From the NCBI GenBank assembly GCA_001692895.1, contig KV748218.1:1-64000 (forward strand): 64,000 nucleotides of DNA, given 5' to 3'. The DNA comes from Cenococcum geophilum 1.58. Taxonomy: Eukaryota; Ascomycota; Dothideomycetes; Gloniales; Gloniaceae. The notes beneath the pieces are model-generated. The model ran no database searches. It was not told the DNA's origin and was given only the letters and a program-made list of their open reading frames with translations. The position numbers and the translations under genes were made by a program. Position 1 is the stretch's first letter. Each line of letters opens with the position of its first letter. This document shows positions 1 to 7,545 of this stretch, piece after piece.

Positions 1-1
1 T

Positions 2-2347
2 CCGTACCGCGGTCATACGGAGCAGCTCGAGGCCCTGAGGGTGCTGATATTTGAGCGGCGAGATCTCATGCTTGTGGCAAAGACGTCTTTTGGCAAGAGT
101 ATGATAATGCAAGCACTACCATGTCTTGTACCTAATGCAGTTGTTATTATTGTTCTTCCACTTAACGCGATTGGGTCAGAGCAAGTAAAAAAGATTGCAA
201 AGCTACCTTATGTTCGACCTGTTCATGTGTGGGAGAAAACAATATCCGCCGAGCTGATTGAGGATATCCGCACGGGCAGCTACACACATATCCTTATCTC
301 CCCAGAGCTTTTGGTTAGTGACAAGCTGCATAAGGTTCTGATAGACCCGATATTTCGTTCCCATGTTGCCCTTGTGGTGGTTGATGAAGTACACCTGCTT
401 GCTGATTGGGGAGAGACCTTCCGTATAGCGTACACACAACTCTTTAAAGTACGTTCAGTCTTAGTTGATAAGCCTTGGTTTGCATGTACCGCAACACTAG
501 ACCCATCTACGTTTCGGACTGTATGCAAGCTNGCTGGGTTTAAACCTAATATACAAGTTATTAAAACCCCAATCGATCGGCCGGAGCTAAAGATTATACG
601 GAGGGTCATGACCGCGCCAGAGAAGAAGGACTTTCGAGCTCTTTACTTTACTATTGCTGCTGCTCCAGTGTATTCGCACACTGCTAGTAATAGTGACCGA
701 GGAGAAGGCGAGCAATCAAGAAGCCGCTTAATATCCGCACAGCAGACATACCGCCAACAGTTCGATCAACTTCAGCTGATTCCAAAGACGATCATCTTCT
801 TTGATTCTAAGGAGTGGATAGCTGCCTGTCGTAATACTATTCGCAGCTGGTTGATCCATCGCGGCTACGATGCTGCTGTTGCTAGAGAAGCGGTGCAGAG
901 CTACCACGCAACGCTTGCGGATATTGACAAAGACCGCTTGTACGCCGAATACGCGCGCCCAACGTCTCGAATTCGAATTTTCGTTGCATCAGATGCAGTA
1001 GCACACGGTGCAGATGTCCCGGATATCTACCGTTCGATCCAATATGGAATGCCTCGCCACAAATCCTGTAATATGCTGGCACAGCGGTTTGGCCGGGCAG
1101 GCCGAGGAGAAGGCCTCTCAGGCGAAGCAATCTTTATGGTTGAGAGCCGCTGGCGGGGTCCTTGCGATGAATTAGGTGGTTCTAAGCATACACAACCTCA
1201 GTGTATAGGCGATCTTCGCGCAAGCGCGCTGCGCAATGATATCCGCGGGCGACAAAACGCAGAGACTGCGGATATTGCGGGCGATGCTTCATCTATAGCG
1301 TCAGTCAGTACTGAGCAGTTGGTAGATACAAGAAGCGGGCGTGGGTTAAGCCCTGGTGGTTCTACAGTACGCCTACCTGAAGAGCTTATCGTACCGACCC
1401 TACGCCCAAAGAAGCGGTTGACTAATGCGCAGTTGCGTGGTAAACTGCCGTTCACCCTATGGCGGCTAGTTAATGAGGATCAGGTATGCTTACGAGCAAT
1501 ACAACTTACACACTATGGAGACCCACAGTCTACTGTTAGTAAAGACTTGTGTTGCAGTAACTGCAACCCAGCAATATTCATGGATTGCGAGTACGATATC
1601 CGCACTAGCCATAGTGCGGATATTGCGAAAACCCGCCGGGAGCCTATGTTAAGCAATATACAGAAGTGGTTTACGCAATGGGCGGAGGCCAGGTATCAGG
1701 ATACATTATGGACGCCTACAGTTAATTGTGTTATACCGGATAAGCAGCTTTGTCGCCTCTGTAACATAGGGTGGGTTCCAGATGCGGCATCATTAAGGCA
1801 AGCAATGCCTGAGTGGGATCCTGATATCCTCGGTGAGGAGCTTCCGTCCCTTATTAAGCTTTTAGCAGATGAGGAACGAAAGCAGAAACAGAAAGAAATA
1901 GGGCAACTCTCAGGTTCTTCTGGGTTAATTATGCAGATGTCAGAGCGGTTTTCCCAAGCGTTAGAGCAGCACGCTGCTGCGGATGAGCGCTTATCACAGG
2001 CTCTTATACGGGCTTCGCAGGTTTCAGATAGGAGATTTGAAATATCAGCGCCGTGGCAATCAGCGCCTCACTGTGGCGCTGATATATCGCAGGCTAGTCA
2101 ACAGTCAGCCATAGACCTCTTGCCAATAACTCAGGAAGAGGATGTACCTATGCCTTCGCCAACTCTTGGGTCTCCAGCTCCTACTCCTCCATCATTACCC
2201 TTATACCAGCCGTNAGATACATCTATGCCGCCAGCAACCCGCCAGTTGGATACGTCTTTATTGGTACCGCAAAGGCGGTCGGCGCGATTAAACAGAGGCA
2301 AACGTATGCGAAGAGCACTACAGGAAATCAACGGCAACGCCAATTAG
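2..2347 (+). CDS. RecQ-like DEVH-box helicase of a mobile element (5' partial)
   Basis: An intron-free reading frame open through the left edge, so the N-terminus lies outside the window. Numbering from base 41, superfamily 2 helicase motifs appear in order. A degenerate Q-motif (YRGHTEQLEAL) precedes base 41. Then come motif I AKTSFGKS (13-20), motif II DEVH followed by LLADWG (115-122), which matches the RecQ DEAHCISQWG block, and motif III ACTAT (148-152). Motif IV is KTIIFFDS, motif V VASDAVAHGADVPD, and motif VI QRFGRAGRG. A RecQ-type zinc-binding region follows, with CLRAIQLTHYGD and then CCSNC. The Ser/Pro/Gln-rich tail is not recognised. Such helicases are known from subtelomeric and transposon-borne fungal genes. 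The tail-to-tail DUF6589-like gene and the shared 8-bp word suggest both belong to one element. Motif I lacks the usual TGGGK, so ATPase activity is not certain. One ambiguous base lies at 532 and another at 2214. Confidence 0.85.
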   Translation, partial: PYRGHTEQLEALRVLIFERRDLMLVAKTSFGKSMIMQALPCLVPNAVVIIVLPLNAIGSEQVKKIAKLPYVRPVHVWEKTISAELIEDIRTGSYTHILISPELLVSDKLHKVLIDPIFRSHVALVVVDEVHLLADWGETFRIAYTQLFKVRSVLVDKPWFACTATLDPSTFRTVCKXAGFKPNIQVIKTPIDRPELKIIRRVMTAPEKKDFRALYFTIAAAPVYSHTASNSDRGEGEQSRSRLISAQQTYRQQFDQLQLIPKTIIFFDSKEWIAACRNTIRSWLIHRGYDAAVAREAVQSYHATLADIDKDRLYAEYARPTSRIRIFVASDAVAHGADVPDIYRSIQYGMPRHKSCNMLAQRFGRAGRGEGLSGEAIFMVESRWRGPCDELGGSKHTQPQCIGDLRASALRNDIRGRQNAETADIAGDASSIASVSTEQLVDTRSGRGLSPGGSTVRLPEELIVPTLRPKKRLTNAQLRGKLPFTLWRLVNEDQVCLRAIQLTHYGDPQSTVSKDLCCSNCNPAIFMDCEYDIRTSHSADIAKTRREPMLSNIQKWFTQWAEARYQDTLWTPTVNCVIPDKQLCRLCNIGWVPDAASLRQAMPEWDPDILGEELPSLIKLLADEERKQKQKEIGQLSGSSGLIMQMSERFSQALEQHAAADERLSQALIRASQVSDRRFEISAPWQSAPHCGADISQASQQSAIDLLPITQEEDVPMPSPTLGSPAPTPPSLPLYQPXDTSMPPATRQLDTSLLVPQRRSARLNRGKRMRRALQEINGNAN

Positions 2348-2367
2348 TATACAGCGGGCTAATATTA

Positions 2368-2427
2368 GGCGAGGTTAGTTGATATCAGGCGGGGTTAGCT
2401 AATACTAGGTGAGTTTACCTTATATCC
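2368..2427. repeat. Three degenerate ~20-bp tandem units
   Basis: Between the stop codons of the two convergent element genes lie three consecutive units beginning GGCGAGGTTAG, GGCGGGGTTAG and GGTGAGTTTAC. Each is followed by a TGATATCA/CTAATACTA-like half. They run into two copies of the 8-bp word (2422-2429 and 2433-2440). The spacer also holds an AT-rich run near 2530-2560. Function is unknown; a terminator region or protein-binding array is possible. Confidence 0.4.
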
Positions 2428-2636
2428 GCCAAGCGGATATTGCAACCATAGTAGCTGATATCTATTAGGATGACGCCCCCCCTTCCCCTTATACCCTACA
2501 CCCCTAGCAAGCGCGGCCCAGGAACTAAATAGATTAATTAATTAATAATATCAATTACTTGGGAATATGTACCAGTGCTACTAACTATAGCGGATATTGA
2601 ACGGTTGTAGTAATAGCTTATAGCTAATATCTTGTA

Positions 2637-5456
2637 TTACTCATCGAGCAACTCATACGCAGGTTGAAGCTGGGTTTGAGCAAAGTCGGCAGGGAGTACG
2701 AAGCCATCTAGCTCATTATCATCGTCATGGAGATCAAGCTCATCAAACACGGCGGAAAGATCACCGCCTAGCCGTGAATTGAACTCGTTGAGGGCAGATT
2801 GATTAAGTCGTTCAATACCTAGTTGTAGTAGAGGCGGCGCTTCCATCTTTGCTCGCCGTGCCTGACGGCGGATAATAGAACCTTCGGCAATCGCATTAGC
2901 AAGCGATTGAATATCCGCTGCAGGAGATTTAACAGTATGTCGAGTAGACATCCGTTCGCCGAACGTGATCTCAAACTTTGCACGTAGTGGCCCTGTATAA
3001 TTAGTCATATGAATGCTCCAGCGGAAGAGTGAGTCTAGGTTAAATGTCGAATTGCCACGAGTGTGCATAAGCTGCTTTAGCTCCCCATTAAGTAGCTCGT
3101 TGTCGAGATCTATCGGGTAGTGACTATCCTGTTCGCCGCGGATATTCACTAGACTATTTACTAGGATAGCTTGCTGGAGCTCAGGGGAACAAGCATCTGT
3201 TGAAGTTAACTGGAAGAAACGTAACATCTCTGGTAGATAGTTCTTGTTTCGACCACCTGCGAAATAGATACAAATGCGGGGGAGCACGCGGCTGAGCAGG
3301 CCAATATCCGCAAGCTTGATGGCGTGCTTGAGGACCTTGTACGTCTCTACCAGTTGTAAAAAGCGGACGTGCGTTAGAAACTCTGCATCAGCAGGCTTAG
3401 AAAGTGTTTGTGAGGATGCAGCACTGCCAGCCTGCTTAAGGTGACCCTTTTGCCGTGGTTCCGCAGGCTGGCTGGCATGGTTGGCCGCCCGAGAGACTTC
3501 CTGACCGAAAACCGCTGTGCGGATATCCTCGACCACTGCTAATAGACGTTGCGGAGATAGGCTTTTAAGGTACCGCTTGATATCTATAGGCGACTTGGTG
3601 TTACAAGACTCCTTAATCTGAGTATGGAGCAACGCTANGATACGAGCGTCGAAGCTATGGAGAATTAGCTCCTCCATATGATGAAACGGCGCGCGCTCGG
3701 CTGGGATATTTCTTCGACCTAGGTGGTTCATGTGGGTGTACAGCGTAGAGTACTCTTGGGCTGATTGCTTGCCACCATAGTGATACCGTATAACCATATA
3801 CAGGTAGTTCAGCTTTAGGTGCCAAAGAGCTGGAATAGGCAGAGCCCAACGCAGGCTATCATAGGCGGATATTGACTCAGTACGTTCTCCCTGACATGAC
3901 CGAATAAGCTTTGCGGTCTTTTGATCACCATAGATCAGAAACAGTCGCTCCTCAAATGCTTTATCGGTGCGTTGTAGATTCATTTGATGGAGAAAAATGT
4001 CGTCTAGTACCTTATAGGTTTCAGATATAGAAGCCTCTCCAGTCATAATAGGTCCTAGGTTAAACCTAGACGTCCGCGCAGCGGGTATTACATTAATAGA
4101 AGGCATACGTGGATGTTTGAACCGCGGGTTTTTGCTGAGTAATATATCAAGGCCTGGGTACGCCTCTACAATGGCTTTATAGATTAAAGCTGTCGAGATC
4201 TGCTTCTGTATCTCGTCTTGTAAATTACCTGGAGCCTCTGCAATATCCGAGAACTTAATTGGAATATCCGCACGAAGCATGCTCTGTCGAAGCCCACCAT
4301 TAGGTATACTTACACCAAAGACAAGCTTGCCAGTCGTGCGCGAATAGAACGTCCCAGTATCCCCAAGTGTTTGATGCTGAACTCGTTGGAGGTAGTCGAA
4401 GTTATCATAGACAACAATAGTATTAGAAGCTGCACCCATTAAGCGGATTTTCACCTGTATGTAGGTTAGTATATACCTGCACCGCGGAGATTGTGGGCTA
4501 AACCTTGATTCCTGGGCTATCCGCTCCTTCTGCCGGTTCAAAGTGGTATAACCATCAATTAATCCAAGCCCATGGAGCACAGAAAGCACGCGGCGCTTAA
4601 CGCCGTTGGCTTGGAGATACATCCCTAGCAGCCGTGGGATACAGTTTGCGGAGTTTCGTGAAAGGCCAAATGCAAGCGTAGAAGCTATTAGAACCGCACG
4701 GCCTTCATGCGGAGAACATTTGCGTCGACCCTCTTGACATGCTGTAATTACATGCTCTAGTGTAGGTGCGTAAGTCTTTACGGCTTGATAGCACTGCCCA
4801 AGGTCAAGCTGCTCAATATCCGCATATTGGTCAAAGCTGCCAAATAGTGACTCTTTCTCCCTTAGCTCTTCAAGCTCTCCCTGGATAGTAAGAGCAACAC
4901 TAGCACCCACTATGCCGCGCTTCTCCATCTCTTCAGTATAGATATCTAGGATATCAGCATCCTCTAGGAGTTTGTTAAGGAGCTCCCTTGCTCTTTTTTT
5001 CTTTAGTGCCTTGCGTGAACCTTCAGCCATTGTAATCCATTCAAGCGCTAGGTCTCCTATAGACATCCGCCATGGCCTAAGACGGTCGACAATTACCCGG
5101 ACCTTCTCTGCAGCGGATATCTTCTCNGCGGATATTGCGGATATTGCGGGTATTTCATCAACTCCTGCTTCTTCATCCTCTTGGGGATCTATGTAGTTTG
5201 GCAGTGGTGAGTNGGCTATTGAGGACCGCCATTGAGCTGCGGATAGCGATGGGGGAGACGACGGGGGAGACGATAGGGGAGATGATGGGGGTGGGACAAG
5301 ACGGCTGATGCCCTCGGGCACTATATCCGCTGTATCTCTTGATCCTCCAGCGGTATTGGTTAATAGAGAGGGTAGTTTATTGTCAAAAGCTTGAGAAGAC
5401 TGGCTCCTGCTAGACGAAATAGAGGGGTTTCTTCGACGCCTTTTAGATGCGCCCAT
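2637..5456 (-). CDS. DUF6589-like, putative transposase-type protein (939 aa)
   Basis: A single uninterrupted frame, convergent with the helicase and separated from it by 289 bp. The first ~110 residues are Ser/Pro-rich and probably disordered, with a basic start (KRRRR) that could act as a nuclear signal. The core (about 220-640) resembles the fungal DUF6589 family: IVVYDNFD (347-354), YGDQKT (509-514), then a stretch like W-LPIPALWHLKLNYLYM, and FHHMEE (591-596). The acidic residues D351/D354, D511 and E595/E596 are spaced as in an RNase H-fold DDE nuclease. That is my inference and is not established for this family. Ambiguous bases lie at 3638, 5127 and 5213. The 8-bp word recurs in the gene and usually encodes ADI, DIR or ISA tripeptides in one orientation or the other. 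The open frame, unlike the RIP-mutated block at 29-31 kb, suggests a recent or protected copy. Confidence 0.7.
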   Translation of the reverse strand: MGASKRRRRNPSISSSRSQSSQAFDNKLPSLLTNTAGGSRDTADIVPEGISRLVPPPSSPLSSPPSSPPSLSAAQWRSSIAXSPLPNYIDPQEDEEAGVDEIPAISAISXEKISAAEKVRVIVDRLRPWRMSIGDLALEWITMAEGSRKALKKKRARELLNKLLEDADILDIYTEEMEKRGIVGASVALTIQGELEELREKESLFGSFDQYADIEQLDLGQCYQAVKTYAPTLEHVITACQEGRRKCSPHEGRAVLIASTLAFGLSRNSANCIPRLLGMYLQANGVKRRVLSVLHGLGLIDGYTTLNRQKERIAQESRFSPQSPRCRYILTYIQVKIRLMGAASNTIVVYDNFDYLQRVQHQTLGDTGTFYSRTTGKLVFGVSIPNGGLRQSMLRADIPIKFSDIAEAPGNLQDEIQKQISTALIYKAIVEAYPGLDILLSKNPRFKHPRMPSINVIPAARTSRFNLGPIMTGEASISETYKVLDDIFLHQMNLQRTDKAFEERLFLIYGDQKTAKLIRSCQGERTESISAYDSLRWALPIPALWHLKLNYLYMVIRYHYGGKQSAQEYSTLYTHMNHLGRRNIPAERAPFHHMEELILHSFDARIXALLHTQIKESCNTKSPIDIKRYLKSLSPQRLLAVVEDIRTAVFGQEVSRAANHASQPAEPRQKGHLKQAGSAASSQTLSKPADAEFLTHVRFLQLVETYKVLKHAIKLADIGLLSRVLPRICIYFAGGRNKNYLPEMLRFFQLTSTDACSPELQQAILVNSLVNIRGEQDSHYPIDLDNELLNGELKQLMHTRGNSTFNLDSLFRWSIHMTNYTGPLRAKFEITFGERMSTRHTVKSPAADIQSLANAIAEGSIIRRQARRAKMEAPPLLQLGIERLNQSALNEFNSRLGGDLSAVFDELDLHDDDNELDGFVLPADFAQTQLQPAYELLDE

Positions 5457-5627
5457 GGCTGGCAGTTGGTTCTGGAAAATCCATCGATTAGAGAGCTGAT
5501 TAAGGCAATTCTAATGCAGGTATTGACAGGATAATAGACGTGGCGGTTGCTTACATTAATTTCGTTAAAGTTGATGGTTTGCCTCATACAAACAGACCGG
5601 CTCGGCTTCCAAAAGCTTGCCAAAGTG

Positions 5628-5723
5628 GCTCAGACCAAGAAACAGATGGATCGATCGAATAGGTTAGCTTGCGGATATTCGATTATCCGCGCAGCGGATA
5701 TTCATCTGTTTCTTGGTCTGAGC
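5628..5723. repeat. Perfect 21-bp inverted repeat at element right edge
   Basis: The arm at 5628-5648 (GCTCAGACC..AACAGATG) is the exact reverse complement of 5703-5723. The 54-bp interval contains two copies of GCGGATATTC (5671-5680 and 5694-5703) and a near-palindrome at 5671-5690. It sits 82 bp upstream of the LCB1 start codon. It could be a hairpin terminus of the element or an inverted terminal cluster. Confidence 0.85.
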
Positions 5724-5805
5724 ATGCTGAGTCAATTGTTCGCGTTCATTTCAGCGATATATTCTGCAACCTGCGATTCCTCCCCCCAACACTATCCACA
5801 CCACA

Positions 5806-7545
5806 ATGGATCTCCACGACGCACAAAACCTAGTATTGCGCCTCATAAGCGATGCGAATGCTCAGTTCCAAAAGGTCCCTGGATCGGCTATTCTGCTGAG
5901 ATACATTAAATCCAGCTACCAGAACGATCCCGTACGATCCGCTGTAGAGCTGTTTCTCTTCCTTTTTGCTGTGCGATATCTTTTGGCTCCGGCATACTCA
6001 ACGCAGAAGCAGAAACATGTCGCTTTGACAGAGGAGGTATGGCATTTCCTGTGCTTCAACCTTTGGATTGTTGTTAAAGGAGGATTATAGGAGATTGACG
6101 AATTAGTTGATGACTGGACTCCGGAGCCCTTGGTCGCGTCTCCAACTGCATTCGAAGAGCTGGAAAAGGAGAAGCGCCCGGTAATTATTGGGTCAGTAAC
6201 GTCTCAATGCAGCATAGTTCTCTCGCTGATAGTTCTAGTCCCACCGGCCCAAAGTCAAAGTTGTCCAACGGCCGAACTGTTACAAACCTCGCCTCCTACA
6301 ATTTTTACAACTTTGTCGCAAATGAGACGCTGAAGGAGAAAGCTATCCAAACTCTCCGGACTTACGGCGTTGGGCCATGCGGTCCTCCCGGATTTTATGG
6401 CACTCAGGATGTGCATATGAAGACGGAAGCGGATATCGCAGCCCACCTGGGTACACCAGCTTGTATCATCTATGCTCAGGCCTTTTCTACTATTTCCAGC
6501 GTCATCCCGTCATTCTCGAAGCGTGGCGATATTATTGTTGCAGACAAGGCCGTAAACTATGCTGTACGTAAGGGTATTCAAATATCCCGCAGCACAGTCC
6601 GATGGTACGAACACAACGATATGGAGGACCTGCAGCGAGTACTAGAGAAGGTTACTAAGGAACAAGCTAAAAAGCCTTTGACGAGGCGATTTATCATCAC
6701 AGAGGGACTATTCGAGAGCGTGGGGGACACAGTGAATTTACCGAAGGTGGTGAGTTTTATGCAGTACTCAACTGGTGTAGTCTATGGTAACTAACATACT
6801 CCAGATTGAACTCAAACTACGATACAAATTCCGCCTTATTTTAGACGAAACCTGGTCGTATGGCGTCTTGGGACGAACAGGACGAGGAGTCACAGAACAA
6901 CAAAATGTGGATGCAGCTGAAGTTGACATGATCATTGGTTCTCTTTCCGGGCCTCTATGCGCTGCTGGAGGTTTTTGCGCAGGAACAGGAGAAGTTGTGG
7001 AACATCAACGTATCTCATCTGCTTCATACACTTACTCCGCCGCTCTACCTGCCATGTTAGCCACCACAGCTAGCGAGACGATAGCGCTATTGCAAGAAAA
7101 TCCAGATATCATAGTTCAGTTAAGGGAGAACATCAAGGCAATGCGAGCACAGCTGGATCCTAGAAGTGACTGGGTTAAGTGTACTGGCTCTATCGACAAC
7201 CCAATCATGCTTCTAGTCTTGAAACCGGAAGTGGTGGCCTCGAAAAAACTGAGCATCGAGGACCAGGAGTTTTTGCTTCAAGATGTGGTCGATGAGGTAT
7301 GCCCAATAGCTGATTCTTAAACGCATGTAGCGACTAACATGAAGTAGTGTGTCGCCAACAGCGTTCTCATCACTAGACTAAAGAGTATACCTGCGGCTCT
7401 TCGTGCTGGCCCAAGTGATCAAGGCTGGCAGCCACAGCCAGCTCTCAAGGTGTGCATCACGACTGGGTTATCCAAAAAGGAGACAGAGAAGGCTGGTATC
7501 GTCATCAGACACGCCATTACTAAGATTGTGACGCGGAAGAAGTAG
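5806..7545 (+). CDS. LCB1: Serine palmitoyltransferase subunit 1 (LCB1)
   Basis: This subunit joins LCB2 in the ER complex that condenses serine with palmitoyl-CoA, the first step of sphingolipid synthesis. Five exons read cleanly: 5806-6036, 6091-6191, 6233-6749, 6805-7296 and 7348-7545. The N-terminus has a hydrophobic membrane segment (about residues 45-62). The PLP-fold core follows, with SNGRTVTNLASYNFYNF, GPPGFYGTQDVH, ILDETWSYGVLGRTGRG and GSLSGPLCAAGGFCAG. As is normal for LCB1, the catalytic lysine found in LCB2 is absent; the active site is completed at the dimer interface. The start is chosen because MDLHDAQNLVLRLI opens the conserved N-terminus and no upstream in-frame start fits. 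The mobile element ends 82 bp upstream, so it may have replaced or moved the original promoter. Confidence 0.93.

Follow-up and report, generated by a model that had tools for sequence, protein, structure and literature searches.

The window analysed here, the first 64,000 bp of contig KV748218.1 of the ascomycete Cenococcum geophilum 1.58 (GenBank assembly GCA_001692895.1), begins inside a DNA transposon with two genes, one for a helicase and one for a protein with the DUF6589 domain, and this element is filled with copies of the 8-mer GCGGATAT/ATATCCGC, counted throughout on both strands. The word is in excess in elements of one clade and specific to that clade, is conserved at the DNA level, turns over in position between families, and has a different motif as its counterpart in a sister clade. 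We infer from these sequence patterns that the word is bound, and that it is a DNA-selected, clade-specific recognition site of a two-gene fungal transposon, read by an element-encoded protein, most likely for anti-silencing self-recognition; we give this explanation a probability of roughly two in three.

Within the window the word has 25 exact matches, 24 of them in the element (positions 242-5701) and one at 6429, against a mean of 1.86 and a maximum of 6 in 100 dinucleotide shuffles of the window, none of which reached 25. An earlier note on this DNA had listed 24 copies in the element and a single one in the other 58 kb; both counts agree with ours, and 23 of the 24 positions are exact, the copy placed at 3529 really lying at 3519. 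Density in the element is about one word per 250 bp, with 13 copies forward and 11 reverse, and 19 of the 24 fall inside the two long reading frames. The scanned genome (162 contigs, 177.19 Mb) holds 15,430 copies, elements included, or one per 11.5 kb. Two patterns that the earlier note had named as contrary to a role, equal abundance elsewhere and absence from other copies of the element, were not found: the word is rare in the rest of the window and stands once per 11.5 kb genome-wide, and each of the 30 family-1 loci described below has 6-21 of them.

The window element belongs to a family (family 1, element E1) that is 6.4 kb in size and has only two long genes. Among 529 candidate matches to its DUF6589 protein in the genome, 49 were scored: seven are 100% identical and stop-free, of which two are complete and five stand at contig ends; the other 42 are 65-79% identical, with many TAG/TAA and few TGA stops. 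The TpA/ApT ratio is 1.46-1.71 in older copies among loci L011-L038 versus about 1.0-1.1 in intact ones, the pattern of repeat-induced point mutation (RIP), by which the older copies appear to have been mutated. Identical intact copies together with RIPed older copies indicate that the family was recently mobile and that its older copies were inactivated. A second un-RIPed family, E2, lies on contig C75 (loci L040 and L044; 10,887 bp) and has the same two convergent genes. Genome-wide, 102 DUF6589 matches were scored from 274 candidates; at least 26 of them have an E2-helicase match within 25 kb in convergent orientation, at least 19 of these pairs being at most 7 kb apart, and one pair, the nested E2/L014 pair, stands in another arrangement, as counted over the 51 helicase matches listed.

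The word is present in 30/30 loci of family 1 (456 copies in 171.6 kb, the window included as L009), in 8/8 of family 2 (74 in 33.4 kb) and in 9/9 of family 3 (100 in 37.4 kb), where L002 and L006 were found via the word itself and L044 was taken as the neighbour of L040. DUF6589 proteins of family 1 are 37-52% identical to those of the other two (37-53% over the three families), and the earlier view of a word confined to one element has to give way to that of a word shared by three or more diverged families of this element type. Among 18 DUF6589 loci outside family 1 (L040-L043, L045-L050 and L054-L061, taken from the genome match list, L047 also being chosen for its words), 14 have the word and four lack it. 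By Markov z score ATATCCGC ranks first of all 8-mers in E1 (24 observed vs 0.49 expected), E2 (30 vs 1.18), L042 (23 vs 0.89), L043 (21 vs 0.89) and L046 (14 vs 0.76). The spacing in the two un-RIPed families is one word per 250-360 bp, codons included, and 19 of the 30 words in E2 are forward; with both orientations used in E1 and E2, the word is not a strand-polar signal.

The coding regions point to selection on the word as DNA. Compared with 1000 synonymous-codon shuffles per gene, the helicase gene has 8 words versus a mean of 1.20 (maximum 5), the window DUF6589 gene 11 versus 1.19 (maximum 5) and a third coding frame 6 versus 0.7, an overall excess of 7- to 9-fold. Tripeptides that the word can encode are over-used in five E1/E2 frames (3822 residues), A-D-I/M occurring 16 times against 1.3 expected, I-S-A 9 against 1.8 and [DNHY]-I-R 9 against 2.8; they are spelled as the word in 13/16, 8/9 and 8/9 cases (29/34 altogether), where about 18%, 5% and 6% would be expected. 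The two elements share 52% amino-acid identity in DUF6589 and 46% in the helicase. Their aligned words are identical at 4 of 14 sites versus 100 of 4046 for other 8-mers (binomial p 0.0003), a figure that leaves out the N-terminal part of DUF6589 and becomes 4/18 when that part is included. At sites where the amino acids are the same, words are DNA-identical in 4 of 4 cases versus 82 of 577 for other 8-mers (14%; Fisher p 0.0005).

The positions of the words change while their number is maintained. Of the 25 word columns that the DUF6589 gene has over the three families, one occurs in every family and three occur in two families; in the fully aligned stretch 4 of 16 are shared. The other nine columns fall in the N-terminal part, which is unaligned for families 2 and 3 save for the first residues of L040/L041. 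That few columns are shared implies that sites come and go with their density kept. In E1 there are 26 exact words versus 23 for all 24 one-mismatch variants combined. The preceding base is T in 14/26 (E1) and 16/30 (E2), the following base is T or C in 24/26 and 25/30, and E1 also prefers G two bases after the word (15/26) and T eight bases before it (16/26). As the flanks have single-base preferences only, the word is unlikely to have spread as part of longer duplicated segments, even if a few copies stand in tandem.

The four word-free loci (L045, L054, L056 and L058) share 24-30% identity in DUF6589 with the word-bearing families, and their identity with L045 is 47-70%. L045 has a convergent helicase match on L062 (27-31% identity, E 4e-38). 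All six stretches read from this sister clade (18 kb) have zero copies of GCGGATAT. Their own iterated motif is TAATTGGCCTAGGAGTT, with 10-bp tandem units, present at up to 3 mismatches in 6/6 stretches (3, 5, 1, 2, 7 and 1 copies). L045 with L062 (8 kb) contains 20 AGGAGTT, grouped in units like TAATTGGCCTAGGAGTTYGCAGGAGTTYG, and L056 with L063 (6 kb) contains 13, nine of them behind TAATTRG, while the window outside the element has 14 in 58 kb; L054 and L058, each read over 2 kb, contain a single copy apiece and no 8-mer as prominent. The motif is partly tandem and mostly same-oriented (14/20 and 12/13 in the two longer assemblies). At up to 2 mismatches the 17-mer has 712 genomic sites versus 9 for its reversed control. 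The two motifs also separate by genomic neighbourhood, as judged with two incomplete lists of DUF6589 genes, 44 matches of the sister clade obtained mostly by a DNA search with L045 and 55 others missed by that search. The first 100 listed sister-motif sites, all exact, include 59 within 12 kb of a sister-clade match (randomly shifted sites: mean 0.6, maximum 4) and none near the 55 others. Conversely, 15 of 72 close word pairs (those on contigs C1-C6 among the 100 listed of 376) lie within 12 kb of the 55 others (shifted mean 0.7, maximum 4) and none lies near a sister-clade match. When 3 mismatches were allowed, the 47 word-clade loci and their flanks yielded 8 matches to the sister motif, spread over 7 loci.

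What could read such a word? A short, non-palindromic, orientation-insensitive site that is conserved as DNA, dense in one clade, associated with hairpins and replaced in a sister clade looks like the trace of an element protein that binds DNA sequence-specifically. The 6.4-kb family carries two long genes only, so that an element-encoded binder would most likely be either the DUF6589 protein, which we infer to be a putative transposase, or the RecQ-like helicase. With sites in and beside the hairpins and along the whole body, protein would cover a bound element over its full length, a coating that would set it apart from both the host genome and the sister clade. The most likely role would be self-recognition that keeps the element open for expression and transposition despite host silencing, in a VANC-like manner, and the next most likely would be assembling or loading a transposase-helicase complex. 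The earlier proposal of a distributed site for an element-encoded protein gains indirect support from the codon shuffles, the DNA conservation, the turnover and the sister motif. If an element protein does bind the words, selection at the DNA level has shaped what a eukaryotic transposon encodes as protein. DUF6589, whose function is unknown, would gain a role open to experiment, and a genome that houses two sister clades, each with its own motif, offers a natural specificity-swap experiment.

The VANC/VANDAL system of Arabidopsis offers the closest parallel. In the available parts of two reports, VANC21 binds YAGTATTAY, which is dense in VANDAL21, VANC6 uses other motifs, and VANC expression accompanies methylation loss (PMC5735166, PMC10398659). 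As far as these parts go, the likeness lies in a short motif that is dense in one family and sporadic elsewhere, with related families using other motifs, and both high density in one element type and differing family motifs were found here. VANDAL motifs are bound by an element-encoded protein; they are mainly non-coding, same-oriented, tandem and from a plant, whereas the word is mostly coding (19/24 in codons), in both orientations (13 forward, 11 reverse), mostly non-tandem and from fungal DUF6589/helicase elements. The sister-clade motif, partly tandem and mostly same-oriented, looks closer to the VANDAL arrangement than the word does. The word may thus work like VANC/VANDAL, and we do not file it as a member, because its coding location, both orientations and other proteins set it apart. 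More generally, and with the odds leaning somewhat against so broad a statement, fungal transposons may carry clade-specific self-recognition words, even in codons, read by an element-encoded protein to escape silencing, as an independent counterpart of VANC in which clades diverge by switching words. It would add an independent second example of transposons that label themselves with a word of their own.

Several results weigh against the self-recognition reading. A structure model of the DUF6589 domain from a four-row alignment has a predicted local distance difference test (pLDDT) score of 31.6, with no transposase fold or DNA-binding domain discernible. The words in the window element are no more evenly spaced than random ones (coefficient of variation of gaps 0.82 vs 0.94). 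Older copies were RIP-mutated, and their words gave no protection from RIP. The word is second by raw count in L047, not first in L049 and present only 4 times in 4 kb in L048, and in E2 one-mismatch variants outnumber exact words 60 to 30, led by GCGGAGAT (10) and GCGGATTT (9); the E2 site may be looser or decaying. Most of the 55 DUF6589 matches outside the sister set were not assigned to a clade individually, and 57 of the 72 word pairs have no listed DUF6589 match within 12 kb. Genome-wide, the reversed control TATAGGCG is commoner than the word (26,725 vs 15,430), and the close word-pair pattern occurs 376 times versus 446 for its reversed control. Without a genome-wide excess over this control, the excess of the word belongs to these elements and not to the genome. 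The control octamer is itself very common and perhaps another repeat.

The main rival is a role in the transposition complex, in which the word is a transposase/helicase loading site only, needed by the hairpins, with internal copies aiding compaction, synapsis or auto-regulation and no part in anti-silencing. It agrees with the lack of strand polarity and with the words found inside or adjoining the terminal hairpins of E1, E2, L001, L002, L042 and L043, but most copies are internal, many of them in codons with over-used encoded tripeptides. End-binding schemes such as the subterminal motifs of Ac or En/Spm need far fewer copies. We regard this account as possible but rather unlikely beside self-recognition. 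Expression of the element through a borrowed DNA-binding factor of the host, such as one of the GATA or zinc-cluster type, is improbable: the word does contain GATA and CGG cores, but its copies run throughout coding DNA, and two clades in one host have different motifs.

A mutational or conversion process driven by methylation or repair could make words without selection on binding, as might be imagined from HIP1, the parallel drawn in the earlier note. In the available text on cyanobacterial HIP words (PMC4390886), HIP1 is an iterated octamer too, some lineages use another word, and these words are linked to methyltransferases; HIP1 is a genome-wide palindrome, whereas our word is non-palindromic and enriched in a mobile element clade. 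The parallel fails on both counts, with one copy in the 58 kb outside the element, and the genome-wide counts rule out a HIP1-type genome-wide word. Such a process is very improbable given that neither gene of the window element matches a methyltransferase model in Pfam, that there is no excess in the rest of the window or in the sister clade of the same genome, and that the restriction to one clade speaks against it. Lastly, that codon usage, repeats in the protein or survival of RIP produced the words as a by-product, as hinted at by the lack of CpA/TpG in the word and by some tandem copies (5128/5137), is hardly credible in view of the synonymous shuffles, the excess in un-RIPed copies, the non-coding copies, the 4/4 DNA identity and the absence of words from RIPed sister-clade stretches, and chance, codon usage and RIP survival are ruled out as main cause by the window and synonymous shuffles, the Markov ranks and the tripeptide spelling.

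The classification of the element itself is a separate question. Academ and AcademH elements combine an Academ-type DDE transposase with a superfamily 2 (SF2) helicase. AcademH is the likeliest classification rival; a helicase is present here, the structure model of DUF6589 gives no clear fold, and a search of solved structures had no convincing match (best E 0.11). The accessible parts of PMC9587614 and PMC10799480 describe KolobokH and AcademH as helicase-bearing fungal DNA transposons, a likeness to our element, and a rhodophyte Kolobok with a RecQ helicase on the complementary strand, as here. KolobokH differs, so far as these parts tell, in that our elements have a 9-bp duplication and the helicase as a separate convergent gene; Kolobok/KolobokH is rejected, since in the two insertions read the duplication is not TTAA and measures 9 bp (exact in E2, 7/9 matching in L014). 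A subtelomeric RecQ helicase element, comparable to the telomere-linked RecQ genes in the available text of PMC4522978, is not favoured: the identical young copies are at contig ends and most RIPed copies inside contigs, and the contig-end copies suggest assembly breaks. No iterated word is mentioned for KolobokH, TET-bearing fungal transposons or telomere-linked helicases in the portions of those sources at hand, and no description of such a word was found in the accessible literature on fungal helicase transposons, iterated motifs and fungal anti-silencing. A text search of literature returned nothing for DUF6589 in the text it covers, and the matches to GCGGATAT looked unrelated among those listed.

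The window is contig C43 from base 1, and it holds the right-hand part of the E1 transposon (1-5735), with the left side cut by the contig start and the left end beyond it; an overlapping copy on contig C9 (L039) supplies the rest of the helicase frame, the left end and two more words. The DEAD/RecQ-type SF2 helicase gene, missing its 5' end, occupies 2-2347 on the plus strand (Pfam PF00270, 5.8e-12; PF00271, 1.9e-8), and the convergent DUF6589 gene, 939 aa and stop-free, 2637-5456 on the minus strand (PF20231, 3e-68); these were the only two kinds of domain above cut-off in a Pfam scan of the element proteins. A terminal foldback hairpin has 24-nt arms, 96% complementary, at 5628-5651 and 5700-5723, and is followed by the right terminus TTGACTCAGC (5726-5735, minus strand), which moves the right end from 5723, as first given, to 5735. 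Of 30 oriented family-1 loci, 25 have a right end that starts with TTGACTCAGCATGCTCAGACC or a near variant of it, with the foldback hairpin behind. E2 has related termini (TTACCTCAGC...) as well as hairpins, and its 9-bp target duplication, CAAGAAACA, is exact; L014, the sole family-1 copy with both flanks read, has AGCAATTCG/AGCGATTTG, matching at 7/9 positions with two transitions, and the target duplication was read for these two insertions only.

Eight words lie in the helicase gene, at 242-249 and 731-738 (minus, I-S-A), 264-271, 1239-1246 and 1596-1603 (minus, D-I-R) and 917-924, 1268-1275 and 1616-1623 (plus, A-D-I). Three are intergenic, an inverted pair at 2422-2429 (minus) and 2433-2440 (plus) and a single copy at 2590-2597 (plus). 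The DUF6589 gene has words on the minus strand at 2911-2918, 3304-3311 (K-L-A-D-I-G-L), 4264-4271, 4816-4823 and 5323-5330, and on the plus strand at 3138-3145, 3519-3526 (V-E-D-I-R-T-A), 3865-3872, 5113-5120, 5128-5135 and 5137-5144, the last two forming a 9-bp tandem. The copies at 242, 1596, 3304 and 3519 are identical in E2. The remaining two, both on the plus strand, are in the terminal hairpin, one in the loop (5671-5678) and one at the boundary of loop and arm 2 (5694-5701).

Some further observations concern the copies and their surroundings. E2 sits inside the terminal hairpin of the family-1 copy L014 (L040:590-620, L044:3797-3830, contig C75) with its 9-bp target duplication, and the right end of L042 also adjoins a similar hairpin (2/7 ends of other elements examined), which may mean that elements of this kind prefer to insert into the hairpins of their relatives. 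E2 has two similar 162-aa frames 1.9 kb apart on the minus strand (L040:4437-4922 and 6328-6813), whose zinc-cluster matches are weak (E 0.071 and 0.015) and fall short of the curated cut-off; E1 showed no frame of this kind. Strongly RIPed DNA at L051:1267-1297 and L052:2706-2766 has a word-bearing 30-bp tandem repeat, and neither of the 4-kb stretches read there matched DUF6589 or a helicase. At base 1, contigs C9, C42, C74 and C149 all begin with one and the same internal codon of the DUF6589 gene; the end of C41 and the start of C43 are at equal distance from that gene; such contig ends inside identical young copies are probably assembly breaks. In the window, a gene at 5806-7320 starts about 70 bp beyond the right end of the element; its translation, judged by eye, we take to resemble the serine palmitoyltransferase subunit LCB1.

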